In this document: in pieces, positions 15,557 to 27,259 of the stretch
Numbering within the stretch: the first letter of the stretch is position 1
How the letters are laid out: every line of letters begins with the position of its first letter
Program-made: the position numbers and the translations under genes
The notes under the pieces: generated by a model
Seen by the model: the letters and a program-made list of their open reading frames with translations, nothing else
What the model was told of the DNA's origin: nothing
Databases searched by the model: none
Assembly (NCBI RefSeq): GCF_018860915.1
Contig: NZ_JAHKQD010000028.1
Coordinates: 1-64,000 of the forward strand
Direction of reading: 5' to 3'
DNA: 64,000 nt
Source: Colwellia sp. C2M11
GTDB taxonomy: Bacteria; Pseudomonadota; Gammaproteobacteria; Enterobacterales; Alteromonadaceae

Positions 15557-17185
15557 ATGCAAAGACGTGACTTTATTAAACTCACTGGTGTCGGTGTCGG
15601 CGGGCTTGTACTGCCTATGTCGGGCATGGCTGTTTCAGCAGAACAATTATTAGACAAACCAATGGATGTCGTGTTTAAGAAAAAACTTGCCGATATAGCG
15701 CTCAATGCTGCTAAAGCGAAAGGCGCAACTTATGCCGATGTACGTATTGGACGGTATTTAAATCAATTTATTACCACACAAGAAAAGCGTGTTGATAACA
15801 TAGTTAATACTGAGTCTGCTGGTATTGGTGTTCGTGTTATTGCAAATGGTACATGGGGATTTGCTTCTACCTCTAATATGACACCAGATAGCGTAGCTAA
15901 AGCCGCTGAACAAGCGGTTGCGGTTGCTGTTGCTAATTCAAAATTTCAAACCGTGCCAGTACAATTAGCACCAGTTAAAGGGGTTGGTGATGTTACTTGG
16001 AATACACCAATCACAAAGAATGCATTTGAAGTACCTATTAAAGATAAAGTTGATTTATTGCTGTCAGTAAATGATGCAGCCATGACGAATGGTGCTAATT
16101 ATATTACGTCAGTGCTATTTCTGGTTAATGAACAAAAATATTTTGCTTCTACTGATGGCTCTTATATTGATCAAGATGTACATCGTTTATGGGCACCATT
16201 TTTTGCTACTGCTATTGGCGAATCAGGCTTTAAGCAACGTACAGGTTTAGGTAATCCTGTTGGTATGGGGTTTGAGTACTTAGACGGCAAAGAAGAAGAT
16301 AAAATTCGTATTTCTGGTGCTAATGTTGGTTATAAAAATTCTTACGATATACTCGAAGATGCTGCTGAAGCAGGTAAACAGCTCAAAGTTAAGCTGAAAG
16401 CTAAATCAGTTGAACCAGGAAAATATGATTTAGTGTTAGACCCTGCGCATTTAATGTTAACTATCCATGAATCAGTAGGCCATCCATTAGAGTTAGACCG
16501 AGTATTAGGTTATGAAGCTAACTTTGCTGGAACAAGTTTTGCTACTTTAGACAAATGGAAAAGTGGCAAGTTTAATTATGGCTCTAAAATAGTTAATTTA
16601 GTAGCAGATAAAACACAACCTTATTCATTAGGGAATGTCGGCTTTGATGATGAAGGCGTTAAAACCAAAGAATGGGATCTAGTTAAAGATGGTACGTTAG
16701 TCAATTACCAAGCTACTCGCGATCAAGTACATATGATTGATCAAAAAGAATCACACGGTTGTTGTTATGCACAAAGCTGGCGTGACGTGCAATTTCAACG
16801 TATGCCTAATGTATCATTAAAACCAAACAAAGAAGATATTTCAGCAGAAGATGTTATTAAAGATGTTGAAAATGGTATTTATATCGCAGGTCGTGGTTCG
16901 TTCTCAATTGATCAACAACGTTATAACTTCCAGTTTGGCGGTCAATTATTTTATGAAATTAAAAATGGTAAAATTACTGAACAAATTGAAGATGTTGCTT
17001 ATCAATCGAATACGCAGGAGTTTTGGAACAGTTGTACGCAAATGGCAGGAAAATCGGATTACAGAATAGGCGGTTCTTTCTTTGATGGTAAAGGTCAACC
17101 TTCGCAAGTGAGTGCAGTATCTCACGGTTGTCCAACGACACGTTTTAACAATATAAATGTGATTAATACCGCACGTAATGTGTAG
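15557..17185 (+). CDS. Tat-exported TldD-family metalloprotease homologue
   Basis: The 542-residue protein starts with a twin-arginine signal, R-R-D-F-I-K at residues 3-8, a glycine-rich hydrophobic stretch and a cut near residue 28. The rest is a TldD-type fold with the zinc motif H-E-S-V-G-H at 304-309. E. coli TldD works in the cytoplasm with TldE, processing microcins and unfolded peptides; this one should act in the periplasm. The Cys zinc ligand of E. coli TldD (in G-M-C-G-K) aligns with a stretch lacking Cys here; C493 or C525 (H-G-C-P-T) might substitute. SD AGAAGGGA precedes the ATG. It is first in a train with a TldE homologue 48 bases downstream. Confidence 0.85.
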   Translation: MQRRDFIKLTGVGVGGLVLPMSGMAVSAEQLLDKPMDVVFKKKLADIALNAAKAKGATYADVRIGRYLNQFITTQEKRVDNIVNTESAGIGVRVIANGTWGFASTSNMTPDSVAKAAEQAVAVAVANSKFQTVPVQLAPVKGVGDVTWNTPITKNAFEVPIKDKVDLLLSVNDAAMTNGANYITSVLFLVNEQKYFASTDGSYIDQDVHRLWAPFFATAIGESGFKQRTGLGNPVGMGFEYLDGKEEDKIRISGANVGYKNSYDILEDAAEAGKQLKVKLKAKSVEPGKYDLVLDPAHLMLTIHESVGHPLELDRVLGYEANFAGTSFATLDKWKSGKFNYGSKIVNLVADKTQPYSLGNVGFDDEGVKTKEWDLVKDGTLVNYQATRDQVHMIDQKESHGCCYAQSWRDVQFQRMPNVSLKPNKEDISAEDVIKDVENGIYIAGRGSFSIDQQRYNFQFGGQLFYEIKNGKITEQIEDVAYQSNTQEFWNSCTQMAGKSDYRIGGSFFDGKGQPSQVSAVSHGCPTTRFNNINVINTARNV

Positions 17186-17233
17186 TCGTTAATTCGATAC
17201 ACAAAGCAAAATAATTTAAAGAAGGAATATGTA

Positions 17234-18610
17234 ATGACTATTTTATCAGAGCAACATGCAAAAACATTGCTTACTAAAGTTTTAAAGTTTTCAAAGGCAG
17301 ATGAATGTGAGTGTAATTTAGATGGCCAAGTTGGTGGCAATATTCGTTATGCACGTAACACTGTCTCTACCGCGGGCGAGCAAAGTGATTTAACACTTTC
17401 AGTTCAGTCTACTTTTGGACTTCGTACCGGTGTTGCGACTATTAATGAGTTTGATGATGCTTCAATTCAAAAAGTAGTACAACGCTCGGAAGAGTTAGCT
17501 AAATTAGCACCAGAAAACCCAGAAAGAATGCCTGTTTTTGGTCCGCAAAAATATAGTAAACCAACAGGTTTTTTTGATTCAACAGCTAATGTTACTCCTG
17601 AAGATAGAGCACAAGCAGCTGAAAACAGTATTAAACCCTCAAAAGCGAATAAATTAGTCTCTTCAGGTTTTTTACAAGAAGGTACTAGCTTTACTGCAAT
17701 CATGAATAACAAAGGTTTGTTCGCTTATGACAAATCAACTAATGTCGATTTCACGGTAACCATTAGAACTGAAGATGGTAAAGGATCGGGTTGGGCAACG
17801 AGCGATTACAGTGATGTGAGTTTACTTGATACTAAAAAAACTTCAGATGCGGCTATTAAAAAAGCATTAGGTTCGGTTGATGCTAAAGAAATGGAGCCAG
17901 GTAAATATACGGTAATTTTAGAGCCTGCCGCGAGTGTGCAACTACTAAGTAACATGTTTGGCAGTATGGGACAGAGACCAGCAGATGAAGGCCGTAGTTT
18001 TTTAAGTAAAAAACAAACTAAAGATAGTGAAGGTAACTTGGTTGGTGCAACGAATAAATTAGGTGAGAAGCTTTTCGATGAGCGAGTTCATATTTATTCA
18101 GACCCAATGCACCCTGAAGTACCAACACCACCTTTCTCTGGTGACGGTTATAGTGTGAGTAAAACTGACTGGGTAAAAGATGGCAAAATTATCAATATGC
18201 CAAATTCTGCTTATTGGGCTAAAAAAACGGGTGTTGAATATAAACCTACAGCTTATGCGGGTTCAGGTATTTTTGGTGGTGCAGCACAGTTTATTATGGC
18301 CGGTGGTGATGAAAGTCTTGAAGAGATGATCAAAAATACACGTCGAGGGGTATTGGTTACTCGTTTATGGTATATCCGCGCTTTAGACCCACAAACCTTG
18401 CTTTATACTGGTTTAACGCGCGATGGTACTTTTTATATTGAAAACGGCAAAATTAAGTATCCAATTAAAAATTTCAGATTTAATGAAAGTCCTATCGTAA
18501 TGTTAAATAATATCGAAGCATTAGGTAAGTCAGTGAGAATAAATGGCTCTATGGTACCACCTATGAAAATTCGTGATTTTACCTTTAGTAGTTTATCTGA
18601 TGCGGTATAA
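17234..18610 (+). CDS. TldE/PmbA-family protein without export signal
   Basis: The 458-residue protein has the TldD/TldE fold but no HExxxH zinc motif, so it is the TldE-like (PmbA) partner. The ATG at 17234 has a clear GAAGGAAT ribosome site, and the N-terminus is hydrophilic with no Sec or Tat signal. Because the TldD partner is Tat-exported, either this subunit travels with it as a folded complex or the two meet before export. TldD and TldE form hetero-oligomers in E. coli. The export idea is an inference. Confidence 0.82.
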   Translation: MTILSEQHAKTLLTKVLKFSKADECECNLDGQVGGNIRYARNTVSTAGEQSDLTLSVQSTFGLRTGVATINEFDDASIQKVVQRSEELAKLAPENPERMPVFGPQKYSKPTGFFDSTANVTPEDRAQAAENSIKPSKANKLVSSGFLQEGTSFTAIMNNKGLFAYDKSTNVDFTVTIRTEDGKGSGWATSDYSDVSLLDTKKTSDAAIKKALGSVDAKEMEPGKYTVILEPAASVQLLSNMFGSMGQRPADEGRSFLSKKQTKDSEGNLVGATNKLGEKLFDERVHIYSDPMHPEVPTPPFSGDGYSVSKTDWVKDGKIINMPNSAYWAKKTGVEYKPTAYAGSGIFGGAAQFIMAGGDESLEEMIKNTRRGVLVTRLWYIRALDPQTLLYTGLTRDGTFYIENGKIKYPIKNFRFNESPIVMLNNIEALGKSVRINGSMVPPMKIRDFTFSSLSDAV

Positions 18611-18635
18611 ATCTATTTCATTATCGTAAATATGC

Positions 18636-18678
18636 TGAATTAACTTCAAACCTTGGTTTATTGTTTGAAGTTAATTCA
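18636..18678 (+). terminator. Long perfect hairpin between the tldE-like gene and the DUF4159 gene
   Basis: A 16-bp uninterrupted stem (arms 18636-18651 and 18663-18678) closes an 11-base loop, 26 bases past the stop. There is no clear U-tract, so it may be a weak terminator, an RNase-processing site or a stability element that sets the ratio between the two halves of the gene train. Confidence 0.5.
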
Positions 18679-18740
18679 ATTCTAGTAAGAAGAGTTTATA
18701 TTCTTTACTATCATCTTCTAATTACGCTAATTTTTTTATT

Positions 18741-19442
18741 ATGAATAGACGCTATTTTCTAAAATCACTTTCTGCACTTACAGGTATTACAGCCTTAGGA
18801 AAGGTACCTTCAGTATTATCAGCGCCTTATTTTGATTTTTACTTCACCCGTTTAAGTTATGAATCGGGAGATTGGGAGGTTGATGAGCGAATGCCTGCCA
18901 ATGTTTTAAATTCGCTGATTGAATACACAAGTTTACGAGTTGATATAAAAGAACGAATTGTCCCGTTATCTGATCCCATTATGTTAACCGCACCATTTTG
19001 TTATTTAGCGGGCCATCGGTTAGTACAATTTAATCATGAAGAAAAACAAAATTTTAAACGTTATGTAGAAAATGGCGGCTTCGTTTTTGTTGACGATTGT
19101 AATCATGATATTGATGGCATGTTTGCACGTAGCTTTGAACAACAAATGAGGGAAATTTTTGGCGAGAACTCATTAAACAAAATACCAAATGACCATGCTA
19201 TTTACTCTTCTTTTTTTAAGTTTGATGGGCCGCCTCGAACATCTATTGAGCTGAATGGCTGGGGAGACGATCTAGTGCATGATTATCTAAAAGCGATTGA
19301 AGTAGATGGCCGAATTGGTGTGCTTTATAGCAATAAAGATTTAGGATGCGAATGGGATTATGACTTTAGAAATAAGCGTTGGTTAAAAGTTGATAATACA
19401 CGCTTTGCCGTCAATATTGTTATGTATGCAATGACAGCTTAA
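18741..19442 (+). CDS. DUF4159 protein with Tat-type signal
   Basis: The 233-residue protein begins M-N-R-R-Y-F-L-K-S, a twin-arginine signal like that of the TldD homologue upstream. A DUF4159 domain follows, with L-T-A-P-F-C-Y-L-A-G-H and G-G-F-V-F-V-D-D-C-N-H stretches. DUF4159 has a glutamine-amidotransferase-like fold in larger relatives and no known activity. It lies 10 bases before moxR and is probably part of the same operon. The shared Tat signal suggests it works in the same compartment as the TldD homologue. Confidence 0.8.
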   Translation: MNRRYFLKSLSALTGITALGKVPSVLSAPYFDFYFTRLSYESGDWEVDERMPANVLNSLIEYTSLRVDIKERIVPLSDPIMLTAPFCYLAGHRLVQFNHEEKQNFKRYVENGGFVFVDDCNHDIDGMFARSFEQQMREIFGENSLNKIPNDHAIYSSFFKFDGPPRTSIELNGWGDDLVHDYLKAIEVDGRIGVLYSNKDLGCEWDYDFRNKRWLKVDNTRFAVNIVMYAMTA

Positions 19443-19452
19443 CCGTACAACA

Positions 19453-20475
19453 ATGGATGAAAGAATGAACGAACAAGAGATTACCGCGACATTAGATAAA
19501 CTTTCTCAAGTCATCGATGAAGTTGGAAAAGTAATTGTTGGCCAAAAGAATGTGATGGAAGAGTTGCTAATCAGCATTTTAGCAGGAGGGCACTGCTTAC
19601 TTGAGGGTGTACCAGGCTTAGCAAAAACGTTAATGGTGAGTTCATTAGCGCAAACATTAGAACTAAACTTTAATCGCGTGCAATTTACCCCTGATTTAAT
19701 GCCGAGTGATATTATTGGTACCGAAATATTAGAAACAGACCATAGCAGTGGTGAGCGTTTTTTTAAATTTCAAAAAGGACCTGTTTTTACCAATATTTTG
19801 TTAGCGGATGAAATCAATCGTACACCACCGAAGACGCAAGCCGCACTCCTTGAAGCAATGCAGGAAAAGAGTGTCAGTTATGGTGGGGAAAGCCATGCCT
19901 TACCTAAACCATTTTTTGTTTTAGCAACCCAGAATCCAGTTGAGCAAGCAGGCACTTATCCTTTACCAGAGGCACAATTAGATCGTTTTTTAATGTTTAT
20001 TCGTGTGGGCTACCCAACTCAAGCCGAAGAAGTAGAAATATTAAAAAGAACCACAGGTAACGCAGAATCTACCTTAACACGCGTATTAAAAGGTGAAGAG
20101 TTACTCGTATTGCAACAACTTGTACGCTCAGTTGAAGTATCTGATACTTTGCTTGATTATGTGAGTGCACTTGTTAGAACAACAAGGCCCGATTCAAGCG
20201 ATAATGAGCTTGTTAAGTGTGATAAAGTTAACTCGTTTGTACGTTGGGGAGCAGGACCTAGAGCAGGGCAAGCATTAGTACTATGCGCTAAAGCTAAGGC
20301 ATTATTGTCAGGACGTTATGCGATGACTTTAGCCGATCTTATTTTTGTTGCCCCTGCTGTTTTACGGCATCGAATTTTACTTAATTTTCAAGCTGAAGCT
20401 GACAATGTATCAACAGATGATGTAATTAGTGATTTATTATTAAGCGTTCCAAAACCTACTAGTCCGTTAGCATAG
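19453..20475 (+). CDS. MoxR-family AAA+ ATPase
   Basis: The 340-residue ATPase has Walker A G-V-P-G-L-A-K-T near residue 55, Walker B L-L-A-D-E-I-N-R, and the MoxR pattern P-K-T-Q-A-A-L-L-E-A-M-Q-E. MoxR proteins act as chaperones that mature metal- or cofactor-containing proteins, usually with a VWA/DUF58 partner, and a DUF58 gene follows 20 bases downstream. The first ATG (19453) has little ribosome site; the ATG at 19465 behind GGATGAAAG is an alternative start. Confidence 0.93.
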   Translation: MDERMNEQEITATLDKLSQVIDEVGKVIVGQKNVMEELLISILAGGHCLLEGVPGLAKTLMVSSLAQTLELNFNRVQFTPDLMPSDIIGTEILETDHSSGERFFKFQKGPVFTNILLADEINRTPPKTQAALLEAMQEKSVSYGGESHALPKPFFVLATQNPVEQAGTYPLPEAQLDRFLMFIRVGYPTQAEEVEILKRTTGNAESTLTRVLKGEELLVLQQLVRSVEVSDTLLDYVSALVRTTRPDSSDNELVKCDKVNSFVRWGAGPRAGQALVLCAKAKALLSGRYAMTLADLIFVAPAVLRHRILLNFQAEADNVSTDDVISDLLLSVPKPTSPLA

Positions 20476-20495
20476 GTTGGGTTTAAGTTATTACA

Positions 20496-21404
20496 ATGCA
20501 TGAATTTGTTGATCCCAAAACATTATCTCGAATTAAAGACCTACCTTTAGTTGCTAAAACCTTAGCACAAGGTTTTTTACATGGCCTACATACTGGTACT
20601 CAACGAGGCGTTGGCATAGAGTTTAGCCAATACCGTGTTTATGAGCCTGGTGATGATCTGTCTCGAGTTGATTGGAAGCTGTTTGCTCGTTCTGATAAGT
20701 ATTTTGTCAGAGAGGCTGAGCGGGAAAGTGACATTAATGCTTGGTTTGTCTTAGATACCAGTGCTTCAATGTTACAAAAATCTCAGTTCAGCTCAAATGA
20801 AAATTCATGGCATAAACTTGATTATGCGCGTTGCTTAGTAGCAACGGCTGCTTATCTTGCCCAAAAGCAAGGTGATAATGTTGGCTTTTTATCCTTAGAT
20901 AACGATAATCAAACGTTTCTTCCTGCGTTATCTGGCGAACGTCATTGGCAAAAAATTCTTCTAGGATTAACGCGCTTAAAAGCACAAAACACTTTTCCTA
21001 CGCTTGAACATGTTATGAATCAATTAGGTCGTGTACAAAGAAACGGCATTATTTTTGTTATTAGTGACTTTCATCAGCAAAGTGATGAAATTGTTGAGCT
21101 GGTAGGGCAACTCAGTAATACCAGAACTGACGTCGTTACTATTCAATTAAGCTGTGATGATGAGGAGCTATTTCCTTATAAAGGTGCGATTCGATTTGAA
21201 GATTTAGAAACTAAGGAGCAAGTGTTAGTTTCGGCAAATCAAGTTAAAGAAAAGTACTATGTTGAAAAGAAAAAATATCAAACGGACTTGCTGAATAGAT
21301 TAACCAAAAACAAAGTGAAACACTTTATTGCTAATATAGATGAGCCGCTTGATCAAACCTTATTTGATATTCTAACGATGAGAAATAAGGCTGTTATAAA
21401 ATGA
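20496..21404 (+). CDS. DUF58 domain protein (MoxR partner)
   Basis: The 302-residue protein has the DUF58 core motif E-P-G-D-D-L-S-R-V-D-W-K-L-F-A-R near residue 50 and a downstream VWA-like segment with D-T-S-A-S-M, a MIDAS-type metal site. DUF58 proteins pair with MoxR ATPases. There are no membrane segments. Its end overlaps the next start by 4 bases (ATGA), so translation is coupled to the BatA-like gene. Confidence 0.9.
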   Translation: MHEFVDPKTLSRIKDLPLVAKTLAQGFLHGLHTGTQRGVGIEFSQYRVYEPGDDLSRVDWKLFARSDKYFVREAERESDINAWFVLDTSASMLQKSQFSSNENSWHKLDYARCLVATAAYLAQKQGDNVGFLSLDNDNQTFLPALSGERHWQKILLGLTRLKAQNTFPTLEHVMNQLGRVQRNGIIFVISDFHQQSDEIVELVGQLSNTRTDVVTIQLSCDDEELFPYKGAIRFEDLETKEQVLVSANQVKEKYYVEKKKYQTDLLNRLTKNKVKHFIANIDEPLDQTLFDILTMRNKAVIK

Positions 21405-22870
21405 CATTTCCTTCAATAGCCTACTGGTTTGTACAATCGCCTTGGATGCTACTTGCGCTTTTGAGTTTACTTGTACCGTTAATTATTCATTTATTCAGTA
21501 AAAGTAAGGGGAAATTAGTCCCTTTTGGTAATATTCGGTTAATTCAATTAAGTAAACCGGTAAAAATGAATGAAATACGTTTAGTTGAGCGCTTATTATT
21601 ATGTTGTCGTTTACTTATGCTGTTTTTTTCGGTGCTATTGTTAGCTCAGCTTTATTACGATGAGAGAAGTAATACTGATGGCGCTACTGAAGGTAATATC
21701 TTAATTACTAATGATTGGCTAAATAATGCCACTGAAGCGGAATTAAAGACCTTAGCATTAAAAGCTGAAAATGTGCCTACTTATCTTTTATCAGCAAGGG
21801 TTGAACGATTAACCAGTGATAAAATTGTTACTTGGAAAAATACGGTCACCAATACTAATAAAAGCAATTATTTAAAAGAAAGTAAGCAACAAAATACTTG
21901 GTTACTTGTTAATAACTATGCCAAAACTTTACCTAATAACGTAAATATCAAGGTTTATACTACTAATCGTTTATCACAATTTATTAACGGTAAAATCTAT
22001 TTTCCGGATAATATTACATGGAATATTAAGCACTTATCTGAAGATGAAATCACTAACTCAATGGAGTCATTAATCAATAAAACACTATCAGTAGTCGTCA
22101 TTAGTGATAAAAGTAATAGTGAATATTTACCGGCGTTAAAGGCTGTTCTTTCTATTATTCAAACGACTAAGCTTGAGAACTTAGCCTTTAGTTTCCACCT
22201 TTCTGATGAACTTAACGATGAACTATTTCAATATGAGCAACCTAAAGATGATTTACCTAAAGGTAACTCTCTTGAATATGAACCATCCAAAAGTGATCAG
22301 CTTCATAATAATATTACAGGCAAGTATGATTCGATTTTATATTTAAGCTCTGCGCCAATTCCTTTGTTTATTAATCAAGAAGTTCGAAAAGGAACAAGCT
22401 TAATTGCTGATATAACGCATGCAAAAGATCCTACTGTGACTCATTTGGTGAACTGGGATGAACTTGTGACAAAAATAACGTTTCCATCAGAATTGATGTC
22501 ACTATTGCTAGATGAAGCAATAAAAGATCACCGAATGCAGCAACAGTTAAGCGATGAACAAATAACGAGTCAACTTGTCCATGAAAGCTCTGCTATTGCA
22601 TCGACCTTAGGTGATAAAGATGATTATAAAGAACAAACTAATAAAGAACACTATGCAAGTAAGTATACGGAATCATTTAAAAACGAATCAATGACTCAAT
22701 TATTGATTATACTGTTAGTGCTTTTCTGGTCGCTTGAGCGCTTGTTAAGTGAAAGATTTCGAAAAGCGCAGGAGGAAAGTACGCTAACTAAGGCGTTTAA
22801 CTCAGATAATGTCAGTCATTCTAGTGACATGCTTGTTACTCAGACATTGAGAGGTAAGGATAATGTCTGA
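21401..22870 (+). CDS. BatA-like membrane protein (aerotolerance regulator N-terminal domain)
   Basis: The 489-residue protein starts with the BatA N-terminal module: a membrane helix, the P-L-I-I-H-L-F motif and F-G-N-I-R-L-I, then a second helix (about 63-85). A long periplasmic-type region follows and a C-terminal membrane helix (about 435-452), with a charged tail. BatA-like proteins accompany MoxR–DUF58 sets. Unlike classic BatA, no VWA MIDAS motif is obvious in the middle part. It overlaps the next gene by 8 bases. Confidence 0.8.
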   Translation: MTFPSIAYWFVQSPWMLLALLSLLVPLIIHLFSKSKGKLVPFGNIRLIQLSKPVKMNEIRLVERLLLCCRLLMLFFSVLLLAQLYYDERSNTDGATEGNILITNDWLNNATEAELKTLALKAENVPTYLLSARVERLTSDKIVTWKNTVTNTNKSNYLKESKQQNTWLLVNNYAKTLPNNVNIKVYTTNRLSQFINGKIYFPDNITWNIKHLSEDEITNSMESLINKTLSVVVISDKSNSEYLPALKAVLSIIQTTKLENLAFSFHLSDELNDELFQYEQPKDDLPKGNSLEYEPSKSDQLHNNITGKYDSILYLSSAPIPLFINQEVRKGTSLIADITHAKDPTVTHLVNWDELVTKITFPSELMSLLLDEAIKDHRMQQQLSDEQITSQLVHESSAIASTLGDKDDYKEQTNKEHYASKYTESFKNESMTQLLIILLVLFWSLERLLSERFRKAQEESTLTKAFNSDNVSHSSDMLVTQTLRGKDNV

Positions 22871-25226
22871 TAATAATAACGCAGAAAATTCGATTAACGT
22901 TCAACTTAATGCTGTAGTGAAACAACTAAAAGTTAGATGGCATTGCTATACTGTGGTTAATTTTTTGCCATGGCTAATAGTATTGTTAACTATGGGGTTT
23001 TACATAAACATACCTATTATTTTACTCATTATAATAAGCACATTAACTCTTATTTTAACTATTTGGATAAGAATTAAATCTTCAAGTTATCAACAACTAA
23101 CGTTAAGTAATTTATTACAGCATTTAAACCGGCTATACCCTGAACTACAAGAAAGTGCACAACTCGTTACTCGAGATGACGATTCACTTTCAATATTACA
23201 GACATTACAAAAACAAAAAACAATTAGCAATATTGAACTTTTATTAAGCGATAACCAGGGTGCAATTTACCCTAAAATATCTTATCAAAATAGTATTGTG
23301 TCATTTGTTTGTGCGATGATAATTTTACTATTAATGTATTTTAGTCATCTATGGTTACCATTACTGACTGTAAGCGAGAATGACGCTATTAAGGTAACTG
23401 TTAGTAAAGATAAAATGGCAGAGACTAGCCAAACACTTTTATTGACACAACATGAAGTCCTTATAACACCACCAGGTTATACCAAGTTACAAAGCCGCCA
23501 GCAAAATGATTTAAATGTATCAGCTGTTGAGGGCTCAATTCTGCGTTGGCAATTAGCTTTTACTAACACTGTCGATAATGTTTTCATTGAATTTTCAGAT
23601 AATCAAAAATTATATTTTACCAAAGAAAGCCAAGATTTTTATAGCCTAGAAAAATCCGCTGATTATACCAGTGTTTATCGTTTGGGCATTCTCGTTAACG
23701 GCGTTGAGACCTTATTACCTGAGGTTTATACTTTAACAATAGTTAAAGATCAAAAAGCTAAAATCACTATTATTAGCCCGAAAAAAACGATTACTGAAAT
23801 TGCGACACAAGATCATACTGACGTGTTGACACAGGTTAAAATAACCGATGATTATAATGTCGCTAAGGTTGAAATATTAGCTTCTATCGCTAAAGGCTCT
23901 GGTGAGTCGGTTAAGTTTAGAGATCAAACTTTTAATTTTGATTCCACTGACGTAATTGACGGGGTTGATCATTATTATATTAATTGGCAGTTAGAAAAAT
24001 TGGGTATGGAGCCAGGTGATGAACTTTATTTTACTGTCAAAGCATGGGATAACCGCCAACCAACTCCGCAAATAACACGGTCAATAACAAAAATAATACG
24101 TTGGCTTGAAGATGAAGATCAGGCTGTGATGTTTGACGGTGCATTGTTTGATTTTATGCCGGAATATTTTAAAAGTCAGCGACAAATTATTATTGAAACC
24201 ATTGAGCTTATAAATGATAGAACAGAGTTAACTACGGAACAATTTGTTGAAAAATCAGAGTTATTAGGTATTGCTCAGCGTGAGTTGAAAGAAAAGTATG
24301 GCCAGTACTTGGGTGATGAAGTAGAAGATGGCGGCGGTAGCCATGCCATGAGTCATGAAGCTAGTGAGCAAGTTTCGAGTCGAGTAGAGAGTGTCACGAA
24401 TCAAGATAATCATGATGAATCAGAAGAACATCATCATGCTCCTGAGCATCACCATGAAGAAGCAGGACACCATGCCAGTGATGATTTTGCAATGAAAGGC
24501 TTTGGTACAGATAAATCAGGTAGTAGTGAGGTTATTAGTCAATTTGGGCACAATCATGAAGAAGCAGATATTGGTATTATGGCACGCCAAGACCCTAAAG
24601 CTTTAATGAAACGTTCTATCACTAATATGTGGCAAGCAGAGTCGCACTTAATGTTATCAGTACCTGAAAAAGCGCTTCCTTATGAAGAAGAAGCATTAAA
24701 GTATTTAAATATGGCAAAAAAAGCAGAGCGTATTTATGTTAAACGCCTTGGGTTTGAACCACCACCGGTGACTGAACAGCGGCGATATCAAGGTGACTTG
24801 GATGATATTTTAAGCTATCGACACCATCAAACCATAGATTTAACTGATAATGAAAAAAATCAGTTAAATAAATTTTATCGTTTATTAAATAGATTGCTAA
24901 GTCGTGTGAACAATAAGGTGCCAACGTCAAAAGAAATGTTGCTCTCAAATACAGAGCGACAACTTGTTAGCAATGTAAAAAAGCAACTTGAAGCGTTACT
25001 TGATAAACGCCCTGTATTGATAAAATATGTCGCTATTATAGAGCGAATATTACTCGCTAATAGTTTTACACTTGATAATTGTCAATTGTGTTTACCTGAC
25101 TTAGCAGAAAAAATTTGGCAATTACTACCTGAGCCTAATGCAAAACCCCAAGTATTGAGAAAGCCTTACCTTACTACAGATGCTTTAACTCAGCAGTACG
25201 CTGAATTTTTGTCGGTACAACCATGA
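22863..25226 (+). CDS. DUF4175-family membrane protein with His-rich insert
   Basis: The 787-residue protein has two N-terminal membrane helices (about 35-70), another near 145-165, then a large domain resembling DUF4175. Residues about 517-537 form an acidic, histidine-rich segment with H-H-H and H-H-H clusters, followed by G-H-N-H, which looks like a metal-binding loop. The C-terminal third is helical. It overlaps both neighbours (8 bases upstream, 4 downstream), so it is part of a tightly coupled operon. The function is unknown; the context suggests a periplasmic metal- or cofactor-linked maturation complex. Confidence 0.78.
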   Translation: MSDNNNAENSINVQLNAVVKQLKVRWHCYTVVNFLPWLIVLLTMGFYINIPIILLIIISTLTLILTIWIRIKSSSYQQLTLSNLLQHLNRLYPELQESAQLVTRDDDSLSILQTLQKQKTISNIELLLSDNQGAIYPKISYQNSIVSFVCAMIILLLMYFSHLWLPLLTVSENDAIKVTVSKDKMAETSQTLLLTQHEVLITPPGYTKLQSRQQNDLNVSAVEGSILRWQLAFTNTVDNVFIEFSDNQKLYFTKESQDFYSLEKSADYTSVYRLGILVNGVETLLPEVYTLTIVKDQKAKITIISPKKTITEIATQDHTDVLTQVKITDDYNVAKVEILASIAKGSGESVKFRDQTFNFDSTDVIDGVDHYYINWQLEKLGMEPGDELYFTVKAWDNRQPTPQITRSITKIIRWLEDEDQAVMFDGALFDFMPEYFKSQRQIIIETIELINDRTELTTEQFVEKSELLGIAQRELKEKYGQYLGDEVEDGGGSHAMSHEASEQVSSRVESVTNQDNHDESEEHHHAPEHHHEEAGHHASDDFAMKGFGTDKSGSSEVISQFGHNHEEADIGIMARQDPKALMKRSITNMWQAESHLMLSVPEKALPYEEEALKYLNMAKKAERIYVKRLGFEPPPVTEQRRYQGDLDDILSYRHHQTIDLTDNEKNQLNKFYRLLNRLLSRVNNKVPTSKEMLLSNTERQLVSNVKKQLEALLDKRPVLIKYVAIIERILLANSFTLDNCQLCLPDLAEKIWQLLPEPNAKPQVLRKPYLTTDALTQQYAEFLSVQP

Positions 25227-27259
25227 TTTTTAATATAACGGAAAACTTACAGTTAGCTCTTCCAAGCCATCTTATCGCTATTGAATATGGGCTTATTATG
25301 CTGAGTTTTATTATCTTAGGCATTACCATTGTTGCAGCTTATCAACGCTTAACTTATTCACGCCGCTTTTTTGTGATTGTTTTACTTAATATGCTCTCAT
25401 TTTGTGCAATTATTGGTTTGATAAGTGATATAAAAATAAAAACGCAAACTGAAATGTCAGCTGTGTTATTAACCTATGGAACGAGTCAGCAACAAATTGA
25501 ATCAATACCTAAGGATAATAATACACAGATTTTTCTTTTATCTTCGCTACCCAATTGGCAAGCTTCGTTAGATTTATCTACGTTAACTAAACCCTTGCTC
25601 ATTGATAATGTGGGTGAAATATTGTTATATCAGCCTCAGATTACTCAGTTAAGTGTTTATGGCGATGGCTTGGCGACACCAGAGTGGCAAATATTGAATA
25701 GCTTGATTAATTCAACAGCGCATGAAAACTTAAGTAAACAGCAATTTAATGTTAATTTTTATCCTTCAAGTATTCGAACTGGCCCAGTAAAACTTAACTG
25801 GCCTAAACAATTAGTACTAGGCCAACCTTTCTATATTTCTGGAACATTAAGAGCACAAAAGCAAGATGAAGAACGAATTTTTAAAATAAGTTTATCAAAT
25901 GCTTATGATGAAGTTGTTGATGAATTTTTAATTAAACATAATGAACGTTTTAATTTATCGGCTTCGTTAAAAAGCCAAGGTTTATTTACGTATCAGTTGA
26001 AAGTTTTCGATGATGATCAAACGTTGCTAATGTCAGAGCCGGTATCATTTAGTGTTACTTCAGCTGAAAAAATAAAAGTTGTTATTAAGCAGTCGGCAGC
26101 TTCTTTTGAAAGTAAACATTTAAAAAATTGGTTAGCAGAGCAGGGTGAGGAAGTATTAGTTTTTACACAAGTGAGTAAAAATAAACATATTCAGCAAGTT
26201 GTTAATGCGACGACTGATGTAGAAGTTATATCTAAGCCAAATAAGGGAGATAAAAGTACTGTAAACATAATTGACAAAGCGTTTACAAGCATTTTATTGA
26301 AAGATACTGACTTACTTTATATGGATGGTCGTGCAGTTTTATCCTTAACGCAGGAAGAAAGTACACAAGTTGAAATGGCTGTAAAAAATGGCCTAGGTTT
26401 AATTATTATTGTCGATGATGAATTACTGTTATCTTCTAATGAAGCGTTAAGTCATTCATTATTAAAGCGTGTTTTTTCACAAGAATCATGGCCATTAAGT
26501 ACAAAAGTGAATCAAGGGTTAACCACTATACCGCGTTGGTTACATAGCCAAGAAGAGCATACTTTATCCTATACCAATGCAATTTTACCTAAAGTTAACG
26601 GTGAGGTGCTTGTTGAGGGCAATGTTGAGGGCAATGACAGTCAAACGTTGGCGATTGCACATAATTACGGTTTAGGCACCGCAACTTTCTCATTAATTAA
26701 TAGCAGTTACCAATGGCTAACCTCTGATAATAAAAGTCATTATAGTCGCTATTGGCAGCATATTATTGAAAATACTGCGCGTTCAGCGCAAGAGTCAGGA
26801 TGGCAAAAATCACCTATTGAACAGATTTATTTTCAAGGTAATACACAACCAATGTGCGCGCAACTAAATGGAGATGATATCAGTGACTTACAAGTTGAAA
26901 ATATTAATTTATTACCGTCAGTTGTTCTCGATTCTGCTTATTGTGGCGTGTATTTAAGTGATTATTTAGGTTGGCATAACTTTACTCTTAAGAATGAAAA
27001 GACGGATTTAAATCAAGTTAATATGAGTACATCATTACAAAATAATATACGCTCAAATAGTCAATCAGTTTTTGTGTATTCACAACGAAATTGGCTAACT
27101 TGGCAACAATTATTGAAGCATGAAGCGAGTCATTTAGCACATAAAAACTCATCAAAAATAGCAGACAAATTCAGCTACTTACCTATTGATAAATTGGCGT
27201 TTTGGTGGTTATTGTTTATCAGTTCATCTTTATTGTGGTACGAAAGAAAAATATTTTAA
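25223..27259 (+). CDS. Large membrane-anchored protein, last gene of the moxR operon
   Basis: The 678-residue protein has two N-terminal membrane helices (about 20-42 and 50-70), a long periplasmic region and one C-terminal helix ending K-L-A-F-W-W-L-L-F-I-S-S-S-L-L-W-Y. This arrangement is common for the last gene of moxR–duf58–batA operons, whose products resemble class I glutamine-amidotransferase-like proteins. I see no catalytic cysteine triad. Its ATG overlaps the DUF4175 stop. Function unknown. Confidence 0.7.
   Translation: MIFNITENLQLALPSHLIAIEYGLIMLSFIILGITIVAAYQRLTYSRRFFVIVLLNMLSFCAIIGLISDIKIKTQTEMSAVLLTYGTSQQQIESIPKDNNTQIFLLSSLPNWQASLDLSTLTKPLLIDNVGEILLYQPQITQLSVYGDGLATPEWQILNSLINSTAHENLSKQQFNVNFYPSSIRTGPVKLNWPKQLVLGQPFYISGTLRAQKQDEERIFKISLSNAYDEVVDEFLIKHNERFNLSASLKSQGLFTYQLKVFDDDQTLLMSEPVSFSVTSAEKIKVVIKQSAASFESKHLKNWLAEQGEEVLVFTQVSKNKHIQQVVNATTDVEVISKPNKGDKSTVNIIDKAFTSILLKDTDLLYMDGRAVLSLTQEESTQVEMAVKNGLGLIIIVDDELLLSSNEALSHSLLKRVFSQESWPLSTKVNQGLTTIPRWLHSQEEHTLSYTNAILPKVNGEVLVEGNVEGNDSQTLAIAHNYGLGTATFSLINSSYQWLTSDNKSHYSRYWQHIIENTARSAQESGWQKSPIEQIYFQGNTQPMCAQLNGDDISDLQVENINLLPSVVLDSAYCGVYLSDYLGWHNFTLKNEKTDLNQVNMSTSLQNNIRSNSQSVFVYSQRNWLTWQQLLKHEASHLAHKNSSKIADKFSYLPIDKLAFWWLLFISSSLLWYERKIF

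Follow-up and report, generated by a model that had tools for sequence, protein, structure and literature searches.

Gene content of the locus

We analysed a window of 64,000 nucleotides (nt) from Colwellia sp. C2M11 (contig NZ_JAHKQD010000028.1, positions 1 to 64,000), in which a same-strand run of eight genes joins a TldD/TldE pair to a MoxR set. The run spans positions 15557-27259 of the forward strand in the list of open reading frames (ORFs), and all features described below lie on that strand. It encodes, in order, a TldD homologue, its TldE partner, a DUF4159 protein, a MoxR ATPase, a DUF58 protein, a BatA-type protein, a DUF4175-like membrane protein and a last membrane protein, here called P8. 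Intergenic gaps measure 48 nt (TldD-TldE), 130 nt (TldE-DUF4159), 10 nt (DUF4159-MoxR) and 20 nt (MoxR-DUF58), and the remaining genes overlap by 4 nt (DUF58/BatA), 8 nt (BatA/DUF4175-like) and 4 nt (DUF4175-like/P8), which bears out the original prediction of eight genes reading in one direction and overlapping from DUF58 on. The TldE-DUF4159 gap (18611-18740) is long in some Bacteroidota loci, reaching about 540 nt in locus L107. Pfam confirmed TldD and TldE (three PmbA_TldD domains each), DUF4159, AAA_3, DUF58 with a von Willebrand A (vWA) match, and BatA, while a search at 1e-3 returned no match for the DUF4175-like protein or P8 of the window. The MoxR-DUF58-BatA part is of a known kind; its coupling to a TldD/E pair with a putative export signal is the new part.

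Recurrence and co-inheritance of the gene set

Genome contigs were scanned with TldD alone, and the best 80 of 203 loci were kept. These came from Colwelliaceae, Alteromonadaceae, Kangiellaceae, Microbulbifer, Lysobacterales, Halieaceae and Bacteroidota (e.g. Aquimarina, Gillisia and Fulvivirga). TldD, TldE, DUF4159, MoxR, DUF58 and the DUF4175-like protein were all present in 70 of the 80 loci; eight loci ended at a contig edge first, and in the remaining two (L089 and L114) the set was not nearby but elsewhere in the genome, as one block at L173 for L089 and split between L174 and L206 for L114. In most loci, the moxR set is thus found beside the tld pair, not apart from it. An ORF of at least 300 amino acids (aa) occupied the BatA slot between the DUF58 and DUF4175-like genes in 67 of the 70 full loci, and BLAST detected P8 in 62. 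Because the same arrangement is found in two phyla, chance grouping is excluded.

Some loci depart from the order seen in the window. In L112, one of the 70, the DUF4159 gene lies on the opposite strand and three TldD and two TldE genes follow P8; Microbulbifer loci carry two TldD and one TldE, and a second TldD occurs in some others too. L112, L149, L157, L158, L176 and L178 each have three TldD copies clustered with two or three of TldE, which suggests paralogues with different substrates. A Pseudomonadota sample (n = 200) held close TldD in six genomes, including G802 of another class, and a 42% relative in G947; when five of these contexts were fetched, the operon was present in G802, G864, G888 and G918 and not in G947.

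Presence and absence of the modules were then compared. Among 296 Bacteroidota, close TldD (at least 60% identity, fragments in G761 included) occurred in 26 genomes and close DUF4159 (at least 69%) in the identical 26; the odds of such an overlap are near 7e-38 if genomes are independent, an assumption that is false. Both proteins were found in the same five genomes of an order sample (n = 197) and the same two of a class sample (n = 274), the window genome being included in both. The set is unevenly distributed: in the order sample, G361 alone among 13 relatives of the window's family has it. A whole-length profile match to the DUF4175-like protein was obtained in 25 of the 26 Bacteroidota with close TldD (the miss is G726) and in G472, G488 and G489, which are TldD genomes, and in none of 41 other genomes picked for comparison.

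Since genomes are not independent, we placed weight on unlinked cases. In G614, G568, G777, G626 and G489, TldD, DUF4159 and the BatA-DUF4175-P8 block lie at separate sites, and all are kept. The sites lie on different contigs or, in the case of G614, in part some 120 kb from each other, and DUF58 stays with the block except in G626. As the modules are kept although unlinked, proximity alone does not explain their co-inheritance. It is practically certain that the close TldD/TldE pair is co-inherited with the moxR set as one system, and the tie put forward in the original prediction is well supported by this matching presence and absence, unlinked cases included.

Persistence at separate genomic places would also suit two modules that serve one envelope pathway and are co-selected without ever touching, TldD/E clearing or trimming peptides made or released by the MoxR assembly. 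Distant DUF4159 and partial DUF4175-like relatives in many Bacteroidota that lack close TldD point the same way. However, the joint occurrence in 70 of 80 loci and the overlapping genes of the window favour production in fixed proportions, and we consider this explanation unlikely.

An additional TldD with an altered metal site

The operon TldD (542 aa, 15557-17185) was identified from its ORF, its match to E. coli TldD (5nj5), alignment and Pfam; PF01523, PF19290 and PF19289 scored above cut-off in TldD and TldE alike. Against the NCBIfam TldD equivalog NF008006 it reached 77.7 bits, under the 513-bit cut-off. The window genome encodes a second, ordinary TldD that is leaderless, with HEAVGH and the Cys ligand, and PmbA is also present; the operon TldD/TldE is an extra pair, distinct from these.

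The metal motif HESVGH (HExxxH; aa 304-309, 16466-16483) keeps both His and the Glu in 102/102 operon-type rows. In E. coli TldD the third metal ligand is Cys454, according to the available text of PMC5810440; Asp510 of the operon protein (17084-17086) aligns with it. The alignment has Asp at this position in 102/102 operon-type TldD rows and Cys in 25/25 other gammaproteobacterial TldDs. With further loci added, Asp was found in 146/146 rows, some genes being counted twice via two loci. Two His plus Asp recall aspzincin-type sites. Cys is the ligand in L193, a 42% TldD relative without a signal, and in the 32%-identity TldD of two genomes of the order sample. Among four divergent TldDs with a Tat-type N-terminus (Tat, twin-arginine translocation), three have Asp and one (L162) has Cys. 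The change from Cys to Asp is compatible with a metal site moved outside the reducing cytoplasm, as a correlation only.

Those four proteins (L161-L164, from G493, G760, G697 and G653) are 48-56% identical to the operon TldD, are accompanied by a leaderless TldE and distant DUF4159 only, and appear to be a second kind of exported TldD/E.

Predicted export of TldD and proposed transport of its partners

TldD of the window begins with a Tat-type N-terminus, MQRRDFIKLTGVGVGGLVLP, judged from the motif and the hydrophobic stretch; the signal would cover aa 1-28 (15557-15640, cleavage site placed by eye). A start codon followed by RR, RK or KR and a hydrophobic run was present in 142/146 operon-type TldD rows from two phyla. 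Of the four exceptions, three are truncated at the locus end, and in L112 the start that precedes RK is uncertain. On visual inspection, three 'Tat' marks among the 25 ordinary TldDs proved to lie within the folded domain, and they were discounted as false. The DUF4159 protein (233 aa, 18741-19442; PF13709 at 1.3e-50, solved relative 4i66) also starts with a Tat-type N-terminus by motif and hydrophobic stretch, MNRRYFLKSLSALTGITALG, which would span aa 1-28 (18741-18824, end by eye). The twin-arginine signals originally predicted on these two proteins are therefore borne out by motif and hydrophobic stretch, and TldD is very probably exported by Tat.

If the RR-hydrophobic N-termini were membrane anchors and not export signals, the whole set would be cytoplasmic. 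MoxR and DUF58 are indeed signal-less and leaderless DUF4159 forms exist, but the twin-basic motif and hydrophobic run are kept across those TldD rows and both phyla, and distant DUF4159 paralogues (L165-L172) have Sec-like N-termini in 8/8 cases. We regard a fully cytoplasmic set as very improbable.

The TldE/PmbA-type partner (458 aa, 17234-18610), assigned from its ORF, Pfam and matches to 1vpb and 5nj5_B, has no signal peptide, and a search of its sequence found no HExxxH, the motif being on TldD only. Its reading frame offers 16 codons between the upstream stop and the ATG, too short for a hidden signal. No signal was found in any of 85 TldE rows of a first set, two regex matches there lying within a charged helix, or in any of the 32 N-terminally complete rows of a second set (35 rows, three genes shared with the first). 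The predicted lack of a signal in TldE thus holds in all rows read and in the window frame. A signal on one partner and its absence from the other, judged by motif and hydropathy, is a conserved feature of the pair.

Transport of DUF4159 bears on how TldE might cross. Among 102 DUF4159 relatives, 67 have a Tat-type N-terminus and 35 are leaderless, starting at the domain, as scored by script and partly by eye. The script gave 59 Tat and 42 none (n = 101, L158 unscored); L057, L072, L143, L146, L183, L184, L192 and L195, of which five have one Arg only, were assigned to the Tat type by eye, and L158 was added as leaderless. On a DUF4159 tree (n = 101, one duplicate row left out), the signal was gained or lost at least four times, two of the changes being forced by starred branches, and leaderless forms, such as those of Aquimarina or Salegentibacter, are known from both phyla. 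As DUF4159 is leaderless in some loci and the eight paralogues read are Sec-like, which would place the domain in one compartment, the most economical interpretation is that TldD can carry DUF4159 as it may carry TldE. The variable signal fits piggyback Tat export of the kind described for PaoABC, where one Tat signal carries three subunits in the account that PMC4273604 gives in the text at hand. This indirectly supports the earlier proposal that TldE crosses as a TldD passenger, which we consider probable.

A DUF4159 relative, mostly a distant one, was present in 209/296 Bacteroidota sampled. In L166-L168 such distant paralogues have a long DUF4175-like gene nearby, a candidate paralogous system without close TldD.

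TldE might instead stay in the cytoplasm, with exported TldD acting as a homodimer or paired with a second TldD. The Microbulbifer loci with two TldD and one TldE, locus L147 with TldD and no adjacent TldE, and an active Sulfolobus TldD homodimer cited in the consulted part of PMC5810440 would all accommodate this. Against it, E. coli needs both subunits and the heterodimer interface is the larger one (same part of PMC5810440); TldE is found in 78 of the best 80 TldD loci, the other two being cut by a contig end; and a leaderless TldE is likewise retained in the divergent, putatively exported pairs. A TldE that remains inside seems quite unlikely to us.

MoxR, DUF58 and the membrane proteins

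The MoxR AAA+ ATPase (340 aa, 19453-20475; PF07726, match to 2r44 at 1.1e-84) carries both Walker motifs, A (GVPGLAKT) and B (ILLADE), in its AAA_3 domain. The DUF58 protein (20496-21404; PF01882 and PF13519) carries the vWA metal ion-dependent adhesion site (MIDAS)-like motif DTSAS at aa 87-91 and no transmembrane segment. The BatA-type protein (21401-22870; PF07584, TIGR02226) has hydrophobic segments near aa 6-24, 66-84 and 431-449, and its soluble part is predicted to be periplasmic. The DUF4175-like protein (787 aa, 22863-25226) comprises three N-terminal hydrophobic segments, Ig-like domains (aa 190-417), a disordered His-rich loop (aa 494-565, 24342-24557; predicted local distance difference test score, pLDDT, below 50 over most of it) and a helical tail. 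The structure model of P8 (25223-27259) shows two N-terminal helices, an Ig-like domain (aa 185-280), a GATase1/ThuA-like domain (aa 282-522) and a C-terminal helix. In the draft genome G761, P8 is broken into three frames (L211, 5653-7563) by either sequence error or decay; TldD and DUF4159 are fragmented there as well.

The DUF4175 label is given on grounds of kinship, since PF13779 is hit at E up to 0.1 in 18 of the 43 family members (best 2.5e-14), although not in the window protein itself. Its predicted His-rich loop is real; among 43 relatives, H537 is conserved in 40, H563 in 42 and H565 in all 43. The conserved loop is compatible with metal handling and proves nothing.

These features raise the alternative that MoxR and DUF58 are a cytoplasmic, chelatase-like pair that loads metal into TldD/E, or assembles it, before export, the membrane proteins anchoring the pair to the export site. 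MoxR proteins with vWA partners help to mature other enzymes and complexes (PMC3893208, in the portion available), proteins that leave by Tat are already folded, the metal site is unlike that of ordinary TldD and the His loop is conserved. On the other hand, the large domains of the DUF4175-like protein and P8, together with the His loop, are predicted to lie on the periplasmic side, and recombinant E. coli TldD carried iron and zinc totalling about 1 mole per monomer, the accessible text of PMC5810440 mentioning no MoxR partner. Such cytoplasmic maturation seems doubtful to us, and it is the first of the alternatives in our ranking.

Proposed mechanism

We favour an exported peptidase served by a MoxR-driven membrane assembly, followed in descending order by cytoplasmic metal loading, modules that make no contact and a TldE that stays inside. 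TldD would fold and take up its metal in the cytoplasm, where it would pair with TldE and, in some lineages, also with signal-less DUF4159. The folded complex would pass through the Tat pore on the TldD signal, TldE being a hitchhiker. In the periplasm, TldD/TldE would act as a hollow-core metallopeptidase that trims unfolded peptides or protein tails. MoxR and its vWA adaptor DUF58 would sit on the cytoplasmic face of an assembly of the BatA-type, DUF4175-like and P8 membrane proteins, whose large domains would be periplasmic. ATP hydrolysis would remodel or gate this assembly, so that substrate reaches the exported TldD/E-DUF4159 or the assembly activates it. The gene set and its order, co-inheritance also of unlinked modules, the distribution of signals and the ligand change are observed; from them we infer Tat export, passenger transport, the complex, its peptidase activity, the membrane topology and the role of MoxR as engine. 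That the eight genes make one envelope machine, a Tat-exported TldD/E(-DUF4159) peptidase with MoxR-driven membrane assembly, is an evenly balanced proposition, and we give the same weight to a motor acting on the peptidase. A bolder version is improbable as a whole: a cytoplasmic MoxR motor would power the periplasmic peptidase through the membrane assembly, amounting to ATP-driven proteolysis across the inner membrane, with a Tat-carried TldD-TldE-DUF4159 heterotrimer bearing redundant signals and a His2-Cys to His2-Asp change suited to a non-reducing site.

Several points weigh against the favoured mechanism. Contact between MoxR and TldD/E belongs to the complex that we infer. Tat signals were called from motif and hydrophobicity, and TatC, found in 36/36 operon genomes, is also in 39/40 Bacteroidota without close TldD and so does not discriminate. 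The change from Cys to Asp is essentially one clade-level event, and L162 is an exception, with a Tat-type signal and Cys. Genomes within a phylum are related, and counts overstate independent events. The 41 genomes used for comparison were picked, not drawn (four with divergent TldD, 37 with distant DUF4159), and of the 28 whole-length DUF4175-like genes three matched in two pieces and one has an in-frame TAA. For G614, G568 and G777, we did not locate a MoxR gene. Finally, G493, G760, G697 and G653 have the divergent Tat-TldD/TldE pair with neither close DUF4159 nor a whole-length DUF4175-like gene. The tie between TldD/E and MoxR stands for the close pair, but these four Bacteroidota speak against its strongest form.

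Relation to known systems

E. coli TldD/TldE (PmbA) shares with the operon pair the three Pfam domains, HExxxH on TldD only and paired genes. The operon TldD differs in its Tat-type signal, its Asp as third ligand, the attached MoxR set and its 77.7 vs 513 bits. In the parts of the literature available, the E. coli TldD/E protease is a heterodimer (PMC5810440), elsewhere TldD/E cuts a microcin precursor (PMC5810440), and in Gluconobacter it is linked to the supply of pyrroloquinoline quinone (PQQ) (PMC8602642). Nothing here points to a microcin or PQQ role for the operon TldD/E.

With MoxR-DUF58-BatA (Bat) systems the operon has in common a MoxR AAA+ ATPase, DUF58 with a MIDAS-like motif and the BatA double-transmembrane domain. 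Unlike them, it carries the DUF4175-like protein, the GATase-like P8, DUF4159 and TldD/E. A Bat system would also include a protein of the tetratricopeptide repeat (TPR) type; no TPR was matched in the eight operon proteins by Pfam at 1e-3, a search that can miss TPRs. The moxR operon RL3499-RL3502 of Rhizobium leguminosarum, which is likewise built around a MoxR, is not known to contain TldD/E. Its MRP-subfamily MoxR, RL3499, is important for membrane integrity and cell morphology, as cited in PMC3893208 and the reference list of PMC5118466, both available in part. PaoABC of E. coli is similar in that one signal-bearing subunit ferries two signal-less ones; it is an unrelated enzyme and serves as a working analogy only.

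The original prediction called the system undescribed. This label needs qualifying. Among the papers that our searches listed, we saw none linking TldD to a MoxR system by function, although a paper may have been missed; a similar operon has, however, been mentioned once. The Stenotrophomonas maltophilia operon NIPOLPBK_01784-01792 encodes two TldD, a MoxR-like ATPase, a putative protease, a membrane protein and three hypothetical proteins, and some of its genes were lower in biofilm in all seven isolates by RNA-seq (PMC7688217, in the text available). By make-up, not sequence, as far as that text describes it, the operon resembles L196, in which we detected eight genes and enough space for BatA. 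The same text calls it not yet characterised and, unlike the present proposal, puts forward no export, pairing or function for it.

Co-inheritance thus names a dedicated, testable MoxR partner, a putatively exported TldD/E, in Gammaproteobacteria and Bacteroidota. If the proposed mechanism is true, TldD/E would be active outside the cytoplasm, and a heterodimeric, perhaps trimeric, protease would join the Tat hitchhikers. The target of membrane-bound MoxR machines would then become a directly approachable question.

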